Below, piece after piece: positions 28,993 to 46,487 of a stretch of 64,000 bases of DNA. The stretch is from Armatimonadota bacterium (GTDB taxonomy: Bacteria; Armatimonadota; UBA5829; DTLH01): positions 1 through 64,000 of the forward strand of contig JAKPFN010000123.1 of NCBI GenBank assembly GCA_029551395.1, in the 5' to 3' direction. The notes under the pieces are model-generated. The model did not search any database, was not told the origin of the DNA, and saw nothing but the letters and a program-made list of their open reading frames with translations. Made by a program: the position numbers and the translations under genes. Each line of letters starts with the position of its first letter. Position 1 is the stretch's first letter.

Positions 28993-30006
28993 CTAAACTC
29001 CTGCCAGTGCAGCTTCTATTGCTACTTTTGTCGGCATTATGCTCCTCAGATACTGTTCGCAGTCCCTTATGGGATAGATCATTTTGTCCCAGCGTCCATC
29101 AGGAAGCGCAAGCGGCGACCGTTCTGCTAAAAGCCATCTGGATATCTCGTCAGCCATTTTCAAAGTCTCAGGACCGGCCATCGCTTCGATTCTGATTAAT
29201 CCAAAGTATAAATCTCTGCCCTCATTAGAGTGAAGCCGCAGGTACCAGCTATATACCGGCGTCCAGTCCTTGCCACGAGGTTGAAAGATGCTCGAACGCT
29301 CACCCACTTTGAGCGACAATATCTTCCGCTGTTCCTCTACACCAAAATACTGAGTCTGATGGCTCTTTATAACTCCAACTACTCTTGGATGCTTGCTGGC
29401 TTCCACGCTGCCTGTAATGGAACCGTCCCAGAACAGCCAGTCTTCAGGACTAGAGGACTCCACCCATCTCTCAGCAAGCTCGCGTTCAAGCTCTGCACGG
29501 TCATTGCTTATAGTCTGACGGGCCAGCTCGAGCAGCCTTAGAGGATGGATATCGTTCGAATCCGATTTTTCACCAGACCTGATCTTTACATCCCTCAGCT
29601 CAAGCCCTGCAGTTTTTAGCCCCGATGTATCCAGGTGGCAAGATGGCTGGTATAATTTTTCCTGAAATTCTTTATCATAGGTGGACATGCAGCGATCGAT
29701 ACCACGCTTGCGGATCACTGCTCCGATGAACCCATAGACAATAGGAACAGAGTGTTGATAGTAGCAGACACGCCTGGTGGTCTGAGCACCATCGAGAAAG
29801 TGGGTAAATCGAGTTCCTGAGGTCTGTCCCACAGGATGCGCTTGCATCCCCGACCCTTCCACTATTTCAGCTTGGGAAACGACTGGAGGTTCCACAGACC
29901 CGCGAGAGCTATCGTCATCAGAATCAGGCTGCAGGACCACCTGAAATGACGACCCATCAGGATTGGATTTGAGATAAGATGCAAATTTTCTGAGTAGCAC
30001 GGACAT
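28993..30006 (-). CDS. nurA: NurA-like nuclease
   Basis: About 337 residues. The metal-binding acids of the NurA fold are visible as FLDGAQ near residue 68 and FWDGSITG near 190, the latter followed by GVIKSH. NurA degrades DNA ends with HerA, whose gene follows at once. The frame is open to a TTG at 30063, but that TTG is the first half of a -35 box, so ATG 30006 is the preferred start. Bacterial HerA-NurA pairs also serve in some defence and repair contexts; here no extra defence gene is adjacent. Confidence 0.78.
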   Translation of the reverse strand: MSVLLRKFASYLKSNPDGSSFQVVLQPDSDDDSSRGSVEPPVVSQAEIVEGSGMQAHPVGQTSGTRFTHFLDGAQTTRRVCYYQHSVPIVYGFIGAVIRKRGIDRCMSTYDKEFQEKLYQPSCHLDTSGLKTAGLELRDVKIRSGEKSDSNDIHPLRLLELARQTISNDRAELERELAERWVESSSPEDWLFWDGSITGSVEASKHPRVVGVIKSHQTQYFGVEEQRKILSLKVGERSSIFQPRGKDWTPVYSWYLRLHSNEGRDLYFGLIRIEAMAGPETLKMADEISRWLLAERSPLALPDGRWDKMIYPIRDCEQYLRSIMPTKVAIEAALAGV

Positions 30007-30034
30007 TCTTTGTAAGCACGCTCCAACTGAACCA

Positions 30035-30063
30035 ATCGTACCATGTGTTAAAAGAGGTGTCAA
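30035..30063 (-). promoter_or_regulatory. Promoter of the nurA-herA operon
   Basis: Minus-strand TTGACA (30063-30058), 17-base spacer and TACGAT (30040-30035, four of six matches including the TA..AT positions). Predicted transcription start is near 30028, giving a leader of about 22 bases to ATG 30006. Confidence 0.6.
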
Positions 30064-30366
30064 ACGGGGGAAGTTACGAGTGGCGAGTGATGAGTGACGA
30101 GTATGATTATTCCAGCCTCGGGAGGAATTTGTAATTCATCCCGGACAAGTAGCCGAGGGATCTCCCGATCCCGAACAACCAATACATATTGTATACTTCG
30201 GCTCGCAGAGCAGAAGGAACGGCATCAACGGCAATAGAGTTAACACCACAAGAGTACCAGGATGCCAAAGCCTTCCATTAATTAGTTCATCTATCTCCGA
30301 TTATGCCGATGCACACTCATAACGGGGTCATCGTCTCTGGCGAGCCAATGCATAGAATACTCTTAG
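30064..30366. other. Intergenic region with short degenerate repeats
   Basis: No gene is visible. 30076-30104 contains repeated GAGTGA/GAGTGACGAG words. The stretch at 30143-30173 is rich in GGGATC/GATCCC-type inverted words (GAGGGATCTCCCGATCCCG). Similar repeat words occur at 58541-58601, so these look like dispersed intergenic repeats rather than regulatory sites of one gene. Confidence 0.6.
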
Positions 30367-31209
30367 TTATATGTATTTATCTAAGTCATCCGGCAGGATT
30401 TTATAATCCTCCCACGGAATCAAATCCTCTTTGCTGCAGTTTGTTGTCAGCAGAGGCAGAGACAACCTGTCCGCTATTACCTGAGCTAACTCTTTCGATG
30501 ACCAACCGGCCTTTGCCACAACAGCATGCTCACGGTCTTCAACACCATAAGGTGATATAAATGCCGTTGCACCATCAATGACAGATTCATCTTCGCAAAG
30601 TAGTTGTCGAAGGATATTATCTCCAGGTGATGAAAAATATGATAACCATACCTTATAAACCTCGGTTGGTTCCTGTGCACGAGAGAACACGGCAATTCGT
30701 GCACCACACCAGTGACTAAACCCCTGGTTTTCTGGAAGCCGGAGCTTATCCACTTCCGTTACTCGAAGTATTACATCAACAGTCGATGGCATACCGGGCT
30801 TGCGTTCGGGAATCCGAAGGTCCGATTGAAGAAGACCTGACATTTGCAACTCAGAAATTTCATCTATCAAATACTCACCCATAACCCAGATTATGGGATC
30901 ATCTACATCTTCCAACAGCAGATTTAGAACCGTCCCAGCTATATGAGGCGTACGCCAGAATATAGGACGAACAATATCTTCAGATGAGGAACTAAGCACT
31001 CCAGGAGAATCAGGATTTGGTCCTGTAAAGCATCTCCTGATGTCATGCAGTTTCTGTAGAACAGTTATGAGACATGCTGGAAGGATTCCGGTTTTTGTAT
31101 ATGCTCGAACAGGAGTCTTTGTTAGTGTTACCGTATCTACTGACTCGAGAACCCCGGCAAAATAAATAATCCCCAACACCTCATTTTTATTATTAGGCTC
31201 ACAGACCAT
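30367..31209 (-). CDS. Uncharacterised protein, candidate RHS immunity partner
   Basis: About 280 residues from ATG 31209 (GAGGG 8 bases upstream, inside the RHS gene); the frame extends to 31224. I do not recognise the family. There is no signal peptide or transmembrane segment. Composition is acidic, with an acidic middle segment (LLLEDVDDPIIW) and a C-terminal part ILPDDLDKYI. Its start overlaps the RHS stop by 11 bases, the position typical of immunity genes behind polymorphic toxins, although 280 residues is long for an immunity protein. The function is inferred only from position. Confidence 0.6.
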   Translation of the reverse strand: MVCEPNNKNEVLGIIYFAGVLESVDTVTLTKTPVRAYTKTGILPACLITVLQKLHDIRRCFTGPNPDSPGVLSSSSEDIVRPIFWRTPHIAGTVLNLLLEDVDDPIIWVMGEYLIDEISELQMSGLLQSDLRIPERKPGMPSTVDVILRVTEVDKLRLPENQGFSHWCGARIAVFSRAQEPTEVYKVWLSYFSSPGDNILRQLLCEDESVIDGATAFISPYGVEDREHAVVAKAGWSSKELAQVIADRLSLPLLTTNCSKEDLIPWEDYKILPDDLDKYI

Positions 31210-32347
31210 TTCGGAAACCCTCAAGGAAATTTTGGATGAATATTCTTTCGTATTTCACCCCGCCAATATTATCAGGTTGGAAATCGATATGCATTTTGCC
31301 TCCATGGTGGCTCTTAAGACCAACATCGAAATCCAAAAATATTTGCTGACCTCCTTTAGTATTTTTTATATATATACCAGCACTTCCAGCAGTACTTATT
31401 ACTCCTGATGCTAAATCAGTCAACGTGGTGGCTGCAAGGTATCCAGATATATAGCCAGCATGCTTAGCTACAGCTTGATATATCTTATCCGTACCCCATT
31501 TTTTTACAACATTTGCTGCGGCACCTTCAGATCCCTCTTGCTCAAGTCCAACTAGTTCACTCATCAACAAACTAAGGAATTTTCCTGTAGGATCATGACC
31601 ATTTATCGGATTATTTGCGCAATAAGCATACCAATTAATCCCATCCTTGGCCGGATCCTCTGATATGAACCTGCCAAGAGTGGGGTCATAGTATCTGGCC
31701 CGCATGTAGATGAGGCCGGTCTCGTTTTCGCAGGAGTGACCAAGGTTGCCTACGAACTTGTGGTTACTCAGGCTGTCACCTGTCAGTCCTACGTTTCTTG
31801 AGACACCGTAGACATCATACTTGCGCAGCCGGGTTTCATTTCCCTGTGCATCGGGATTGACTTTGCCATCTTCATCAACTTCAGCTACTACGCTGCCCAG
31901 CCCATCGAAGACGTACCACCTGATAATATCACCAGTTGGTGAATGCTGGATCTTGTAACCAGTATATCCGTTGGGGTCCATGAAGTAAGTTGCGTGCTTC
32001 TGACCTCCCCTAAGCTCACGGACAACACTCTGTCCTTCTATAACAAAGCGGGTTGTGGTTCCTCCTTCGGTCATACTACGCCTGAGACCGTCAGCTCCGT
32101 AGGTAAACTGGGAAGTGTGACCGTCATAGACACGGGATATCAACCTGTTCTGACTGTCCCACCAGTTGACCTGGACATTATCTACCGTAGTATTGTTGCC
32201 ATTGTTATCATAACCATAACTGTGATATGGTTTTGATGTAAGCTGGTTTAACGAATTATAAACCCACTGCTGACCGCTGTCAATCGTTTTGATGCTACAG
32301 CGCACGCTTTTTACACCGAAGCCCACGCTACCAATTATAATCGGCAT
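31199..32347 (-). CDS. RHS-repeat core protein with variable C-terminus, 5'-truncated
   Basis: About 382 residues. YD-repeat segments (SYGYDNNGN, RLISRVYDG, FTYGADGLRRS) lead to the RHS-associated core with ARYYDPTLGRFISEDP and the NNPINGHDPTGK boundary. The last roughly 125 residues are unrelated to the core and end SHHGGKMHIDFQPDNIGG, a possible nuclease-like or other toxin tip. Complete RHS proteins are usually far longer with a secretion-linked N-terminus; here similarity begins only near 32270 and no ribosome site precedes the start. It may be a displaced RHS-tip cassette or a pseudogene. A possible immunity gene overlaps the stop. Confidence 0.72.
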   Translation of the reverse strand: MPIIIGSVGFGVKSVRCSIKTIDSGQQWVYNSLNQLTSKPYHSYGYDNNGNNTTVDNVQVNWWDSQNRLISRVYDGHTSQFTYGADGLRRSMTEGGTTTRFVIEGQSVVRELRGGQKHATYFMDPNGYTGYKIQHSPTGDIIRWYVFDGLGSVVAEVDEDGKVNPDAQGNETRLRKYDVYGVSRNVGLTGDSLSNHKFVGNLGHSCENETGLIYMRARYYDPTLGRFISEDPAKDGINWYAYCANNPINGHDPTGKFLSLLMSELVGLEQEGSEGAAANVVKKWGTDKIYQAVAKHAGYISGYLAATTLTDLASGVISTAGSAGIYIKNTKGGQQIFLDFDVGLKSHHGGKMHIDFQPDNIGGVKYERIFIQNFLEGFRNGL

Positions 32348-32420
32348 AAACAACAAACATACTTGTTCGTATTACAACCAACTGCCACCCATAAAACATC
32401 ATCCCACATCCCACCCACAG

Positions 32421-33000: not shown

Positions 33001-34254
33001 TCACTGGAACAGCGTCGGGAAGATGCTGGTAAGCACCATTATGATGCTGAATACAATTAAGGCAGCAGCAGTAATCCATACTATGATGTTGTATATTTTC
33101 GAATTCGTATACTGCCCCATAACAGCCTTGTTATTTATCAGCTTCAGCATAAAGATAAGAACAACAGGCAGAAGCAGGCCGTTTACGAACTGAGACCAGA
33201 TCATCACCAACACCGGGTTAAAGTGAGGAATCAACGCCACAAGCGCGCCGATCACGATAGCAGATGTATAAATGCCATAAAAAGCCGGCGCTTCTTTCCA
33301 CTTGCGGCTGATTCCGATTTCAAAACCAAACGCTTCAGTAAACGTATAAGCTGTCGATAAAGGCAGGACTGCTGCAGCAAGTAAAGAGGCTCCAAGAAGC
33401 CCGAAGGCAAAAAGAACAGTAGCATATCCGCCTGCAAACGGCTTTAGAGCTATTGCAAGGTCACTGGCATCGAGTTCTTCCGGCCTGACAACAGTCGGCC
33501 CTCCAACTGCATGATGAAGAGTTGCTGCTGCTGCTATTATGATGAAAGCAGAAACCAGGTCGGTAAGTATCGAGCCAACAATGACATCCGCTTTCTGATA
33601 TTTGTAGTGACGAACATCAACACCTTTGTCTACAACTGTTGCCTGAAGGAAAAACTGCATCCAGGGAGTGATTGTAGTCCCGACAAGTGCTATCAAAAAC
33701 AGCAGATATTGTGTATCGAACGCTGCAAAACTTGGTCTGGTTATACCTTCAATGACGCTTGACCATGAAGGCCGTGCCATAATCCCGGAGATTATATAGG
33801 TGGCATAAAGTACGGCGAGAGTAAGAAAAACCCGCTCCACTGTCTTGAAATTGCCTCTGACAACCAGGAACCAGACTCCGGCTGCCGCCAGCGGCACTCC
33901 CAGGTACCGTGCAGCAAACGGGAAATTAAACGGGGATGCAGCCGCCAGAAGCTCAGTAGCAGCTGCAATACCGGCAAATTCAGCTATCGTAGTAGCGAGG
34001 TTAGCAACGAGAAGAACGGACAGTGCAAACAGAGTCCATTTGACTCCAAACTGCTCCCGGATAAGCTCTCCGAGGCCTTTCTGAGTGACAGTACCCATAC
34101 GTGCTGCCATTTCCTGGACTATAATCAGCACGAAGGTGATGACAACTATCACCCACAGCAGGTTGTAGCCGAATAGAGCACCCGCTGCGGAGTACGTAGT
34201 TATACCACCGGCATCGTTGTCTGCGGCAGACGTAATGATACCGGGGCCTATCAC
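33001..34254 (-). CDS. Divergent Nramp-family metal transporter (NRMT-like site)
   Basis: 417 residues from GTG 34254, about 11 membrane helices. In helix 1 the canonical DPGN is replaced by DAGG (ADNDAGGITTYSAAGA), and in helix 6 the MPH region reads ITPW. The Asp is kept while the Asn and the selectivity Met are lost. Loss of the Met/Asn ligands is known for Nramp-related magnesium transporters, so Mg2+ (or Mn2+) uptake is plausible. The preceding gene encodes PRC/MgtE_N/CBS domains, which supports Mg2+. The frame is open upstream back to the TAG of that gene and encodes the rest of helix 1 (RRGILAFLAV), yet has no ATG, GTG or TTG there; the true start is uncertain. Confidence 0.88.
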   Translation of the reverse strand: MIGPGIITSAADNDAGGITTYSAAGALFGYNLLWVIVVITFVLIIVQEMAARMGTVTQKGLGELIREQFGVKWTLFALSVLLVANLATTIAEFAGIAAATELLAAASPFNFPFAARYLGVPLAAAGVWFLVVRGNFKTVERVFLTLAVLYATYIISGIMARPSWSSVIEGITRPSFAAFDTQYLLFLIALVGTTITPWMQFFLQATVVDKGVDVRHYKYQKADVIVGSILTDLVSAFIIIAAAATLHHAVGGPTVVRPEELDASDLAIALKPFAGGYATVLFAFGLLGASLLAAAVLPLSTAYTFTEAFGFEIGISRKWKEAPAFYGIYTSAIVIGALVALIPHFNPVLVMIWSQFVNGLLLPVVLIFMLKLINNKAVMGQYTNSKIYNIIVWITAAALIVFSIIMVLTSIFPTLFQ

Positions 34255-34308
34255 CGCCAGAAAGGCCAGAATACCTCTTCGACTTATCCGCCTGATCTGA
34301 TTCCTCCA

Positions 34309-35562
34309 CTACTCCGACCACACTTTCGGTATCTTTCTACGCCAGTTCTCAGGGAGAACCTTCTGAAGCGCATCATCAATCGTCACAATCCCCTGCATCC
34401 GGTTTTCATCATCAACAACCGGCAGGGCAAGCAGGTTATAGTCTTCCATTGTCTGTGCTATCTCTTGAATTGTTGCATCAAGATGCACATGGATAACGTT
34501 TTCGACCATGAACTCCTCAGCATTTGTCTGAGGCTGTGCTATTATCAGGTCACGAAGCGAGATAACTCCAACCAACCGCTTCGATTCATCAAGAACATAG
34601 ATATAATAAATAGTCTCTGCGTCCGGCCCAACCTCACGCAGATGATTGATTATCTCCTCAGCCGTCATATCCGGTGAGATGGATATAAACTCAGTGGTCA
34701 TCAACCCACCGGCTGTTTCATCTGCATATTGGAGCAGTTCCTTAACGTCCTCAGCTTCTTCTGCCTCCATCTCGTTAAGGATCTCATCCCTGCGGTCGGC
34801 TGGCAGGTCTCCCAGCACGTCTGCAGCCTCATCAGGCTCCATTTCTTCCAGAATATCTGCAGCACGCTCCTCATCCAGGCTTTCGACTATCGATACCTGC
34901 ACCGCAGGATCAGTCTCAGCAAGCGTTTCTGCTGCTGTCTCAACGTCTACCGACTCAAAATACTCTGTCCGCTGGGCAGGATCGAGTTCTTCGATGATCT
35001 TTGCAATATCCGCTGGATGCCGTTTTGACAGCTTCTCAGCAGGAACTTTCAACCTGAGACGGCCTTCCTCACGCTCGAAAGTCTCTACATCGTTCCAAGC
35101 GATGATCCTAGTACTTGGCCGCCATCTGGACCTTCTCGTAAGCCGATCCGTAAGCTTCTCAAGACCAAGTCTTCTCAGAAGCCCACGCATTCCGGTATCG
35201 ACTCCAACCAAATAGAGCGAATCATCCGACTGCTCCAATCGGACATCATTAACTCGAACTACTCTGAAGTTATGAACATCAACAATCTGCTTGTCCTGAA
35301 CGTCTCTTTTGAGCAGCAGGTCTTTCTCCTGTATCTGATATGACTTAGCTGCGTCCCGATTAACGGTAAGCTTAAGACCTCGGTCTGTAATCCGCAGTTG
35401 CTCCCAGGGAATGGTTTGACAATCGCCTCGACGCGTGCAGATAATCGCTGCGGTTACAGGTGGAAATTGGATAGTCTGACTTACTATCAAATCATCCAGC
35501 TTACCAACCAATTCTCCCGAAACATCGAACACCGGTTTTCCAAGCATTTCCGATAGAAACAT
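34309..35562 (-). CDS. PRC-barrel / MgtE_N / CBS-pair cytoplasmic protein
   Basis: About 417 residues from ATG 35562 (GGAAG upstream); the frame to 35682 overlaps the promoter. Order: PRC-barrel-like domain (FLSEMLGKPVFDVSGE, about 1-80), a second barrel-like segment, MgtE N-terminal superhelical domain (about 200-310, HPADIAKIIEELDPAQR and acidic helices), and two CBS motifs (about 315-425). The MgtE transmembrane pore domain is absent. In MgtE these cytoplasmic domains sense Mg2+ and gate the pore, so this protein may regulate the downstream Nramp-like transporter, in the same frame with one TAG between them. Confidence 0.85.
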   Translation of the reverse strand: MFLSEMLGKPVFDVSGELVGKLDDLIVSQTIQFPPVTAAIICTRRGDCQTIPWEQLRITDRGLKLTVNRDAAKSYQIQEKDLLLKRDVQDKQIVDVHNFRVVRVNDVRLEQSDDSLYLVGVDTGMRGLLRRLGLEKLTDRLTRRSRWRPSTRIIAWNDVETFEREEGRLRLKVPAEKLSKRHPADIAKIIEELDPAQRTEYFESVDVETAAETLAETDPAVQVSIVESLDEERAADILEEMEPDEAADVLGDLPADRRDEILNEMEAEEAEDVKELLQYADETAGGLMTTEFISISPDMTAEEIINHLREVGPDAETIYYIYVLDESKRLVGVISLRDLIIAQPQTNAEEFMVENVIHVHLDATIQEIAQTMEDYNLLALPVVDDENRMQGIVTIDDALQKVLPENWRRKIPKVWSE

Positions 35563-44562: not shown

Positions 44563-45417
44563 TCAAAGTGCGGCCAAACGACGCTTCTTCTCACTGCAGC
44601 ATAGCTGTCTGGCCAGACGTCGCAGCCAGATAACGGCTGCAGACCTGGGATGTGATATCGGCAAAGGTTTTCTGGAATGTATGCTTCTCGGAATCATATC
44701 ATCCGCCTCAATCATAGTCCATGATGTATACACTCGCCCTAAGAACTTATCCGTGACTCCGTTTATGATATCTACCGACTGTTTTGCCTGCAGTTCTGAC
44801 GCTGATGAATTGACCAGAAGCTGAATATCCGACTCTAGGAACTTCCTGTCCAATGTTTTGAGCATTGCATAGGTATCCCTGAGAGATGTTGGCTCTGGAG
44901 TAGTCACCAGCAGCACCTTGTCAGCATCTTCAAGGAAATCGATGACATCGTCTCCAATGCCAGGGCTGGTGTCTATTACCACAGTATCGAATGATCGGTA
45001 GTATCTCCTCAGTTTGCCAAGAAGCATCTGCCGTTCATCAGCACCAGCGGCAGCCAGTTCTCGGAGCCCAGAGCCGCCAGAGATTACCGTTACCCCATTA
45101 GGGCCGGGAGCGGCAACATCTTCAGGCTCAAAATCTGTTAATAGCAAATGACCTATATGCCTTGGCGTATCGATACCAAGCATCACGTCAACATTTGCAA
45201 GCCCGAGATCAGCATCCACAAGCAGAACCTGTTTTCCTTCTTCCGCCAGAAGGATTGCAAGGTTGACGGCAATTGTGGTCTTTCCTACCCCACCCTTACC
45301 GCTTGTTACTGCTATGACCTGGGTATTAGCGAACTCGTAAGCCGCGCACACACCGTTCTCAGGACTGGTACAGGTTTCTCCCATTACAATCGCACGCAGT
45401 CTGGAGGCTTGATCCAT
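44563..45417 (-). CDS. flhG: FlhG/YlxH MinD-type ATPase
   Basis: 284 residues. The N-terminal MDQASRLRAI matches the DQAxxLR activator helix that stimulates FlhF. Deviant Walker A is TSGKGGVGKTT (38-48), with LLVDADLGLANVDVML and a C-terminal amphipathic basic segment (CSEKKRRLAAL) for membrane binding. It sets flagellar number and position together with FlhF. TGATG coupling with flhF at 45415-45419. Confidence 0.95.
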   Translation of the reverse strand: MDQASRLRAIVMGETCTSPENGVCAAYEFANTQVIAVTSGKGGVGKTTIAVNLAILLAEEGKQVLLVDADLGLANVDVMLGIDTPRHIGHLLLTDFEPEDVAAPGPNGVTVISGGSGLRELAAAGADERQMLLGKLRRYYRSFDTVVIDTSPGIGDDVIDFLEDADKVLLVTTPEPTSLRDTYAMLKTLDRKFLESDIQLLVNSSASELQAKQSVDIINGVTDKFLGRVYTSWTMIEADDMIPRSIHSRKPLPISHPRSAAVIWLRRLARQLCCSEKKRRLAAL

Positions 45418-46487
45418 CAGAGTGAACCCTCCCAGACGAATTTCGCTAGCCTGCCTGCATCTGCCAGAGCTATATCGTCAGGAACTTCCTGTCCGTAGGT
45501 TATGTAAGAGAACGGCAGAATACTGTTGGCAGCAAGCCCAAGGATACACCCCATCTGCGGGCATTCATCCAGCTTAGTAAGCAGCAATCTGCTTGCCAGG
45601 AGGCTGCTGAAACTCTCCACAGACTCTTTCTGGACAGTAGGACTCGATGATGCTGATACGACTAAATGCACTTCTGTTGGCTCGGCAGCACGAACGAACC
45701 TTCTGAGTTCGTCCAGATGTTCTCTGTTTCGCTGGCTGCGGCCGACTGTGTCGATGATAATGACATCTTTGTCTTTGTGCTTGCATACGAGTGCATCTAC
45801 ATCCTCTGGGCAAAGCGCAACCTCTAACGGGATGTTCATAATACGAGCATAAGTGGCAAGCTGTTCTATTGCGCCTATTCTGTAAGTATCGAGAGTGAGC
45901 AGGGCAACTTTTTTCTTATAGACAAGGGAGTATCTGGCAGCCAGTTTGGCGGCTGTGGTAGTTTTACCCACCCCTGTAGGTCCAACAAGGGCAATTCTCT
46001 CCTGACTGTCTTGTTGAGCCACTGGCTGAGTAACAGCAATGCGGCGTGCTATGGCAGCCAGGACAGCAGAAAGGTCTTCTGAGCTACATTCCTCTGCCAG
46101 TATCTCAGCGAGCCTTTCCGGCACTCCGTTTCTGACCAGACGGTCGTATATGGGTGAAGGCGCGGGTTGAGAGGATGACTCGCGCACCTCATTCATATCT
46201 GCAAACAGCCGCTGGATATCAGCAATCTGACGGTTTATCTGATTCGTATCAGCGGACATAGATACAGGACGCTGAGCACAGGCAGTGGCAGCTTCGGAAT
46301 ATGCGGCCGAAGATGGTTGGTCATCAGCAGCAGCCAGAATCTCGACACTCTTCTGACGGCCAAGACCAAACCAGACCGGTTCCTCATGCTGCTTTGTGTG
46401 CAGCACGGTTACGCCATCGCCAAGCTGTCTCCTCGCTTCCGCGAGGGCATCATGCATATTGTGGGACTTGATACGTAGAATCTTCAT
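45417..46487 (-). CDS. flhF: FlhF SRP-type GTPase
   Basis: 356 residues. Canonical N-terminus KILRIKSHNMHDALAEARR and a variable basic region precede the NG domain, with G1 GPTGVGKTT at 169-177, a DTYRIGAIEQL segment, G3 VIIDTVGRS and G4 LTKLDE. It directs the first flagellar components to the assembly site. Its 5' end overlaps flhA by 38 bases. Confidence 0.96.
   Translation of the reverse strand: MKILRIKSHNMHDALAEARRQLGDGVTVLHTKQHEEPVWFGLGRQKSVEILAAADDQPSSAAYSEAATACAQRPVSMSADTNQINRQIADIQRLFADMNEVRESSSQPAPSPIYDRLVRNGVPERLAEILAEECSSEDLSAVLAAIARRIAVTQPVAQQDSQERIALVGPTGVGKTTTAAKLAARYSLVYKKKVALLTLDTYRIGAIEQLATYARIMNIPLEVALCPEDVDALVCKHKDKDVIIIDTVGRSQRNREHLDELRRFVRAAEPTEVHLVVSASSSPTVQKESVESFSSLLASRLLLTKLDECPQMGCILGLAANSILPFSYITYGQEVPDDIALADAGRLAKFVWEGSL

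Follow-up and report, generated by a model that had tools for sequence, protein, structure and literature searches.

A gene for an Nramp-family transporter, on the minus strand of the 64,000-nucleotide stretch of Armatimonadota DNA analysed here (the window), probably begins its translation at a non-standard codon, the AUC at position 34296. The N-terminus that the transporter receives from standard gene calling would then have to be corrected. The case is built on the position of the start codon in related transporters, and on the preservation of both the ATC and its surroundings in a second genus.

Layout of the locus

Translation of the minus strand from 35562 to 33001 yields one frame that is interrupted only once, by the TAG at 34311-34309. 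This bears out an earlier note on the sequence, which had described a regulator and an Nramp gene as lying in one frame and separated by a single TAG. Two further details of the junction given there are likewise correct: the frame has no ATG, GTG or TTG over the 18 codons that lie between the TAG and the GTG at 34254, and a GGAGG (34307-34303) follows the TAG, six bases from the ATC (34296-34294). The features of the locus are as follows.

34309..35562, minus strand: regulator gene with a PRC-barrel, an MgtE_N and two CBS domains, 417 aa, ending in TAG
34309..34311, minus strand: stop codon TAG of the regulator (TAA in the sister genus), from translation and alignment
34303..34307, minus strand: GGAGG, Shine-Dalgarno-like, with a 6-base spacer to the ATC; identical in the sister genus
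34294..34296, minus strand: ATC, proposed start codon of the transporter, at the position of ATG (once GTG) in relatives from the order; kept in the sister genus
34273..34296, minus strand: eight codons ATC AGG CGG ATA AGT CGA AGA GGT (IRRISRRG), identical in both genera
33001..34296, minus strand: NRMT-type Nramp transporter, 431 aa if read from the ATC, assigned by its match to EleNRMT and its metal-site motifs
34252..34254, minus strand: GTG, the first standard in-frame start, with no Shine-Dalgarno sequence upstream; it would cut the transporter at the start of helix 1
34274..34309, minus strand: out-of-frame GTG (sharing the G of the TAG) plus 11 codons, VEESDQADKSKR; in the sister genus MEESDQADKSKR, from TAATG

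Position of the start codon in relatives

Relatives from the same order have an ATG as start codon of the transporter (a GTG in L011) at the position equal to 34296 of the window. This is a fixed position, 42 bases upstream of the codon equal to GTG 34254, and it is followed by a basic stretch of the form R/K-R or similar, such as MRRLGR or MKRLSRRG. Most of these relatives also possess a purine-rich Shine-Dalgarno sequence just 5' of the start. In the window, the same position is occupied by ATC, and the residues that follow are RRISRRG.

Two genomes of the family itself are known, from separate assemblies, namely that of the window and one of a different genus, an Armatimonadetes genome from groundwater (L037), whose transporter is 74% identical to that of the window at the protein level. 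The junction in this sister genus reads TAA TGG AGG AGT CCG ATC AGG CGG ATA AGT CGA AGA GGT, and the ATC, the GGAGG and the 6-base spacing have all been kept between the two genera. Furthermore, when the two genomes are compared, no other run of unchanged codons in either gene is as long as the eight from ATC to GGT, and these eight are the sole fully identical stretch among 134 eight-codon stretches in which the amino acids are conserved. Across both genes, roughly 41% of the degenerate codons that encode the same amino acid are also the same in sequence, and identity of all eight codons has a p of about 0.0008 for a preset stretch. Following the ATC, the frame changes between the genera as a protein-coding sequence does (I/L, A/V and synonymous replacements). 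Lastly, in every relative outside the family a standard start codon lies 10 or more codons upstream of the equivalent of GTG 34254.

Together, the identical codon run, the protein-like changes, the spacing of the GGAGG and the upstream starts of the relatives argue that the transporter begins at or very near the ATC, and not at GTG 34254. A rare start at ATC 34296, one of several options that the earlier note had put forward, is the best supported of them, as it occupies the ATG or GTG position of the relatives from the order and is retained in a second genus.

Weighing against the AUC are the small size of the family, which is known from two genomes, the presence of an in-frame GTG or ATG further into the gene in both of them, the weakness to be expected of a near-cognate start, and an RNA fold at the site that is nothing unusual (z -0.49). 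The transporter could instead begin downstream, at GTG 34254 in the window and, in the sister genus, at a TTG six codons earlier or an ATG one codon later, and would then lack its basic N-terminus and start from helix 1a. These are the first standard in-frame codons, and the proteins made from the GTG here and from the sister genus's ATG, one codon further on, would be nearly the same. However, neither codon is preceded by a Shine-Dalgarno sequence, and valine and methionine codons recur internally in relatives that have a clear ATG upstream. An N-terminus this short is found in no relative outside the family, and the codons 5' of the downstream start are conserved as protein and are in fact the most conserved of all. 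The shortened transporter that had been considered earlier is therefore not favoured, and we regard a downstream start as unlikely.

Three other near-cognate codons, ATA 34287, ATT 34272 and CTG 34269, all lie in frame and might take the place of the ATC. Yet none of them has a normally spaced Shine-Dalgarno sequence, nor does any lie at the start position of the relatives, and initiation at one of these codons is improbable. It might also be supposed that a sequencing or assembly error conceals an ATG, given that both assemblies are fragmented (165 and about 370 contigs). The same ATC nevertheless occurs in the independent genome of another genus, which makes such an error very unlikely.

Chance expectations and the shared reading frame

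Several features of the junction that appear suggestive when taken singly are no more frequent than chance or common in the window. A start-free head of 18 codons is present in 10 of the 51 long frames in the window, and the long start-free stretch alone was accordingly discarded as evidence. A survey of the window showed that a GGAGG lying 4-9 bases ahead of a given position is rare (0.43% of positions), which favours the ATC, although the bare pattern GGAGG-N4-9-ATC was found 13 times, against 12.9 expected from shuffled sequence; the motif by itself was similarly set aside. The regulator lies directly upstream of the transporter and on the same strand in 55 of 101 distinct transporter relatives, and in 18 of these 55 the two genes share a frame, where one third would be expected by chance. 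The shared frame therefore does not count as evidence either. Because both the bare motif and the shared frame are at chance level, the argument for the ATC rests on homology and on conservation of position.

The open frame across the TAG could in principle allow readthrough, joining sensor and transporter in one protein of about 95 kDa, as the earlier note had contemplated. The chance-level frequency of the shared frame speaks against this, as does the TAA that the sister genus has for its stop, and the codons right after the stop change freely between the genera (NQ to SP). Moreover, no fusion exists among the 101 distinct relatives; an apparent fusion in L050 was rejected, as its alignment ran over a stop. 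With TAA as the stop in the other genus and no relative fused, a fusion product is contradicted, and we hold it to be highly improbable. Thus, of the two arrangements that the earlier note had envisaged in relatives, a one-gene fusion is absent (0/101), while an ATG at this place is indeed present in relatives from the order (once as GTG), with ATC in both genomes of the family.

Possible out-of-frame reading at the stop codon

The stop codon of the regulator overlaps a possible start codon in another frame, through TAGTG in the window and TAATG in the sister genus. When the 12 codons that begin there are compared (VEESDQADKSKR and MEESDQADKSKR, respectively), only the start codon differs in amino-acid terms, and the remaining 11 codons, EESDQADKSKR, are unchanged. 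Among about 1,560 such out-of-frame stretches, no other has 11 codons in a row that are free of amino-acid changes. Neither a stop nor a slippery signal was found after the 12 codons; in both genomes the frame runs on without interruption over about 100 codons, and the two sequences part ways beyond codon 12.

Translation might restart at TAGTG or TAATG, read these codons out of frame, and then undergo a +1 shift into the transporter frame; alternatively, the short reading could serve as a competing regulatory leader. Both genomes have retained this start codon, the two internal changes are synonymous in that frame, and the 11-codon run is unique. TAATG overlaps are, in addition, a classic arrangement for coupled restart. 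The out-of-frame reading of the same bases would fit part of the extra conservation, and to this extent it counts against the AUC. However, the identical 25-base block accounts for most of its conservation, which may be a by-product of that block. The divergence past codon 12 and the plain in-frame ATG starts of the relatives also oppose this reading, and because there is no stop or slippery signal, the +1 shift was given a low probability. Overall, an out-of-frame restart or leader is rather improbable.

Apparent non-standard start codons elsewhere

In infC of the window's genome (L122 in G000) and of the sister genome (L123 in G001), the strong Shine-Dalgarno sequence GAGGTGAT lies ahead of an ATA, and in neither genome does an ATG, GTG or TTG occur in the interval from the preceding stop codon to the conserved part of the protein. 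Elsewhere in the order (L124-L127, L132) infC is alike, with a strong Shine-Dalgarno sequence before ATA, or ATC or ATT. In both genomes infC appears to start on a near-cognate codon, which is the known pattern for this gene, and non-standard starts therefore appear to be in use in these organisms. The transporter displays the same combination of sequence features as infC, that is, a near-cognate codon at the homologous start, a Shine-Dalgarno sequence, and conservation in two genera. A further long frame of the window (44563-45477, minus strand) has 20 codons before its first standard start, and a CTG preceded by a Shine-Dalgarno sequence at its codon 19.

Proposed mechanism of AUC initiation

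We propose that the regulator and the transporter are two adjacent genes on one mRNA, as opposed to a fusion, and that they would be co-transcribed. The product of the regulator gene would be soluble, a PRC/MgtE_N/CBS protein that presumably senses Mg2+ in the cytosol. Ribosomes would finish this protein at the UAG, and initiation of the transporter would occur at the AUC 12 bases downstream, via the GGAGG, with the initiator fMet-tRNA reading the AUC; ribosomes that stop at the UAG may feed this start. By analogy with infC, pcnB and sigR, the AUC start would presumably be inefficient and disfavoured by IF3. The dose of the transporter would then be low, dependent on IF3, and below that of the regulator, as for sigR relative to rsrA, and the activity of the transporter could in turn be gated by the regulator.

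More tentatively, the AUC might constitute a control point, at which synthesis of the transporter would track the level of IF3 and the fidelity of initiation, possibly in opposition to an out-of-frame restart at UAGUG or UAAUG. A magnesium importer would thus be regulated by the start-codon proofreading of the ribosome, an idea that we consider doubtful. Initiation fidelity depends on Mg2+ in vitro.

Codons such as AUU, AUC and AUA escape automatic annotation when they serve as starts, and to our knowledge very few bacterial genes besides infC are known to begin with one of them. If true, an AUC start that has been conserved in a magnesium-type transporter gene, beside that of its putative sensor, would be a further case of a rare start that sets the ratio of two partners, and comparison of homologous start positions can reveal genes with non-standard starts.

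The regulator and the transporter

The regulator matches only positions 25-252 of the 450 in the MgtE model, below the cut-off, and it aligns to the cytosolic domain of TtMgtE (2yvy) with an E-value of 2.8e-44. As it has no membrane pore, it is not an MgtE channel, but a pore-less protein with MgtE domains. The transporter belongs to the Nramp family (PF01566, E 1.2e-93), and its match to EleNRMT (7qia) has an E-value of 2e-103, the next solved Nramp structure following at 3e-23. Its metal site contains DAGG and TTIT, which align to DAGG and TTIA of EleNRMT. The signature of the NRMTs consists of DxxG in helix 1 and TxxA/T in helix 6, which replace DxxN and A/CxxM (PMC8806188). Both its closest family and its DxxG and TxxT motifs place the transporter among the NRMTs, and its substrate is likely to be Mg2+. 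The domain matches and the alignment with EleNRMT thereby uphold the earlier description of MgtE gating domains without a pore, next to a transporter with an NRMT-like binding site.

No second MgtE_N protein was found in the genome of the window or in that of the sister genus, and therefore neither possesses a full MgtE. The genome of the window does encode a CorA magnesium channel (G000:C13:3385-4245, L141), and no CorA was found in the sister genome (G001). No M-box or other known RNA lies near the genes within the window. In a Bacillota relative (L035), an M-box magnesium riboswitch is located at 1257-1422, upstream of the same gene pair. A search for a near match among plasmids gave none. 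The minus strand at 31199-32371 together with 28993-31254 encodes, as judged by eye, the last part of an RHS/YD-repeat protein whose C-terminus is variable, and then two uncharacterised proteins that could be its immunity partners.

Comparison with known systems

The sensor-transporter pair is already known. Shin et al. (2014) reported that, for most members of the group, a gene homologous to the MgtE cytosolic domain accompanies NrmT in the genome, and proposed feedback gating for the pair; with one such pair, that of Acidobacterium capsulatum, the uptake of Mn2+ was restored more effectively than that of Mg2+ (PMC4072509). The window contains the same two neighbouring genes, an MgtE-N-like regulator and NrmT, and the pair that the earlier note had called new had thus been described before. 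What differs is the start codon, as relatives outside the family have standard transporter starts, unlike the ATC here; the window also shows no M-box, although the relative L035 has one.

The transporter resembles EleNRMT from Eggerthella lenta (PDB 7qia; PMC8806188) over nearly the whole protein, and shares with it the DxxG and TxxA/T motifs. It differs in that its second motif is TxxT, and in that the second of the residues in helix 6b that replace histidine is Leu, whereas it is Asn in EleNRMT.

With regard to the start codon, no metal transporter with such a rare start was found in the literature searched. The start codon of infC is AUC in Streptomyces (PMC5472188) and AUA in S. aureus, where three near-cognate starts reached about 10% of the level obtained with AUG when the medium was poor (PMC13009471). 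The proposed start resembles those of infC (AUU, AUC, AUA), pcnB (AUU), ccpN (AUA) and cvfC1 (AUU) of S. aureus, and sigR (GTC) of Streptomyces, in combining a rare codon with a good Shine-Dalgarno sequence, in being kept in relatives, and in its expected limitation of dose. The likeness extends further for sigR, which is also part of a two-gene unit: its GTC start lowers the dose of sigR relative to rsrA (PMC5472188), and so sets the ratio of the two proteins, as the AUC may do for the transporter and its regulator.
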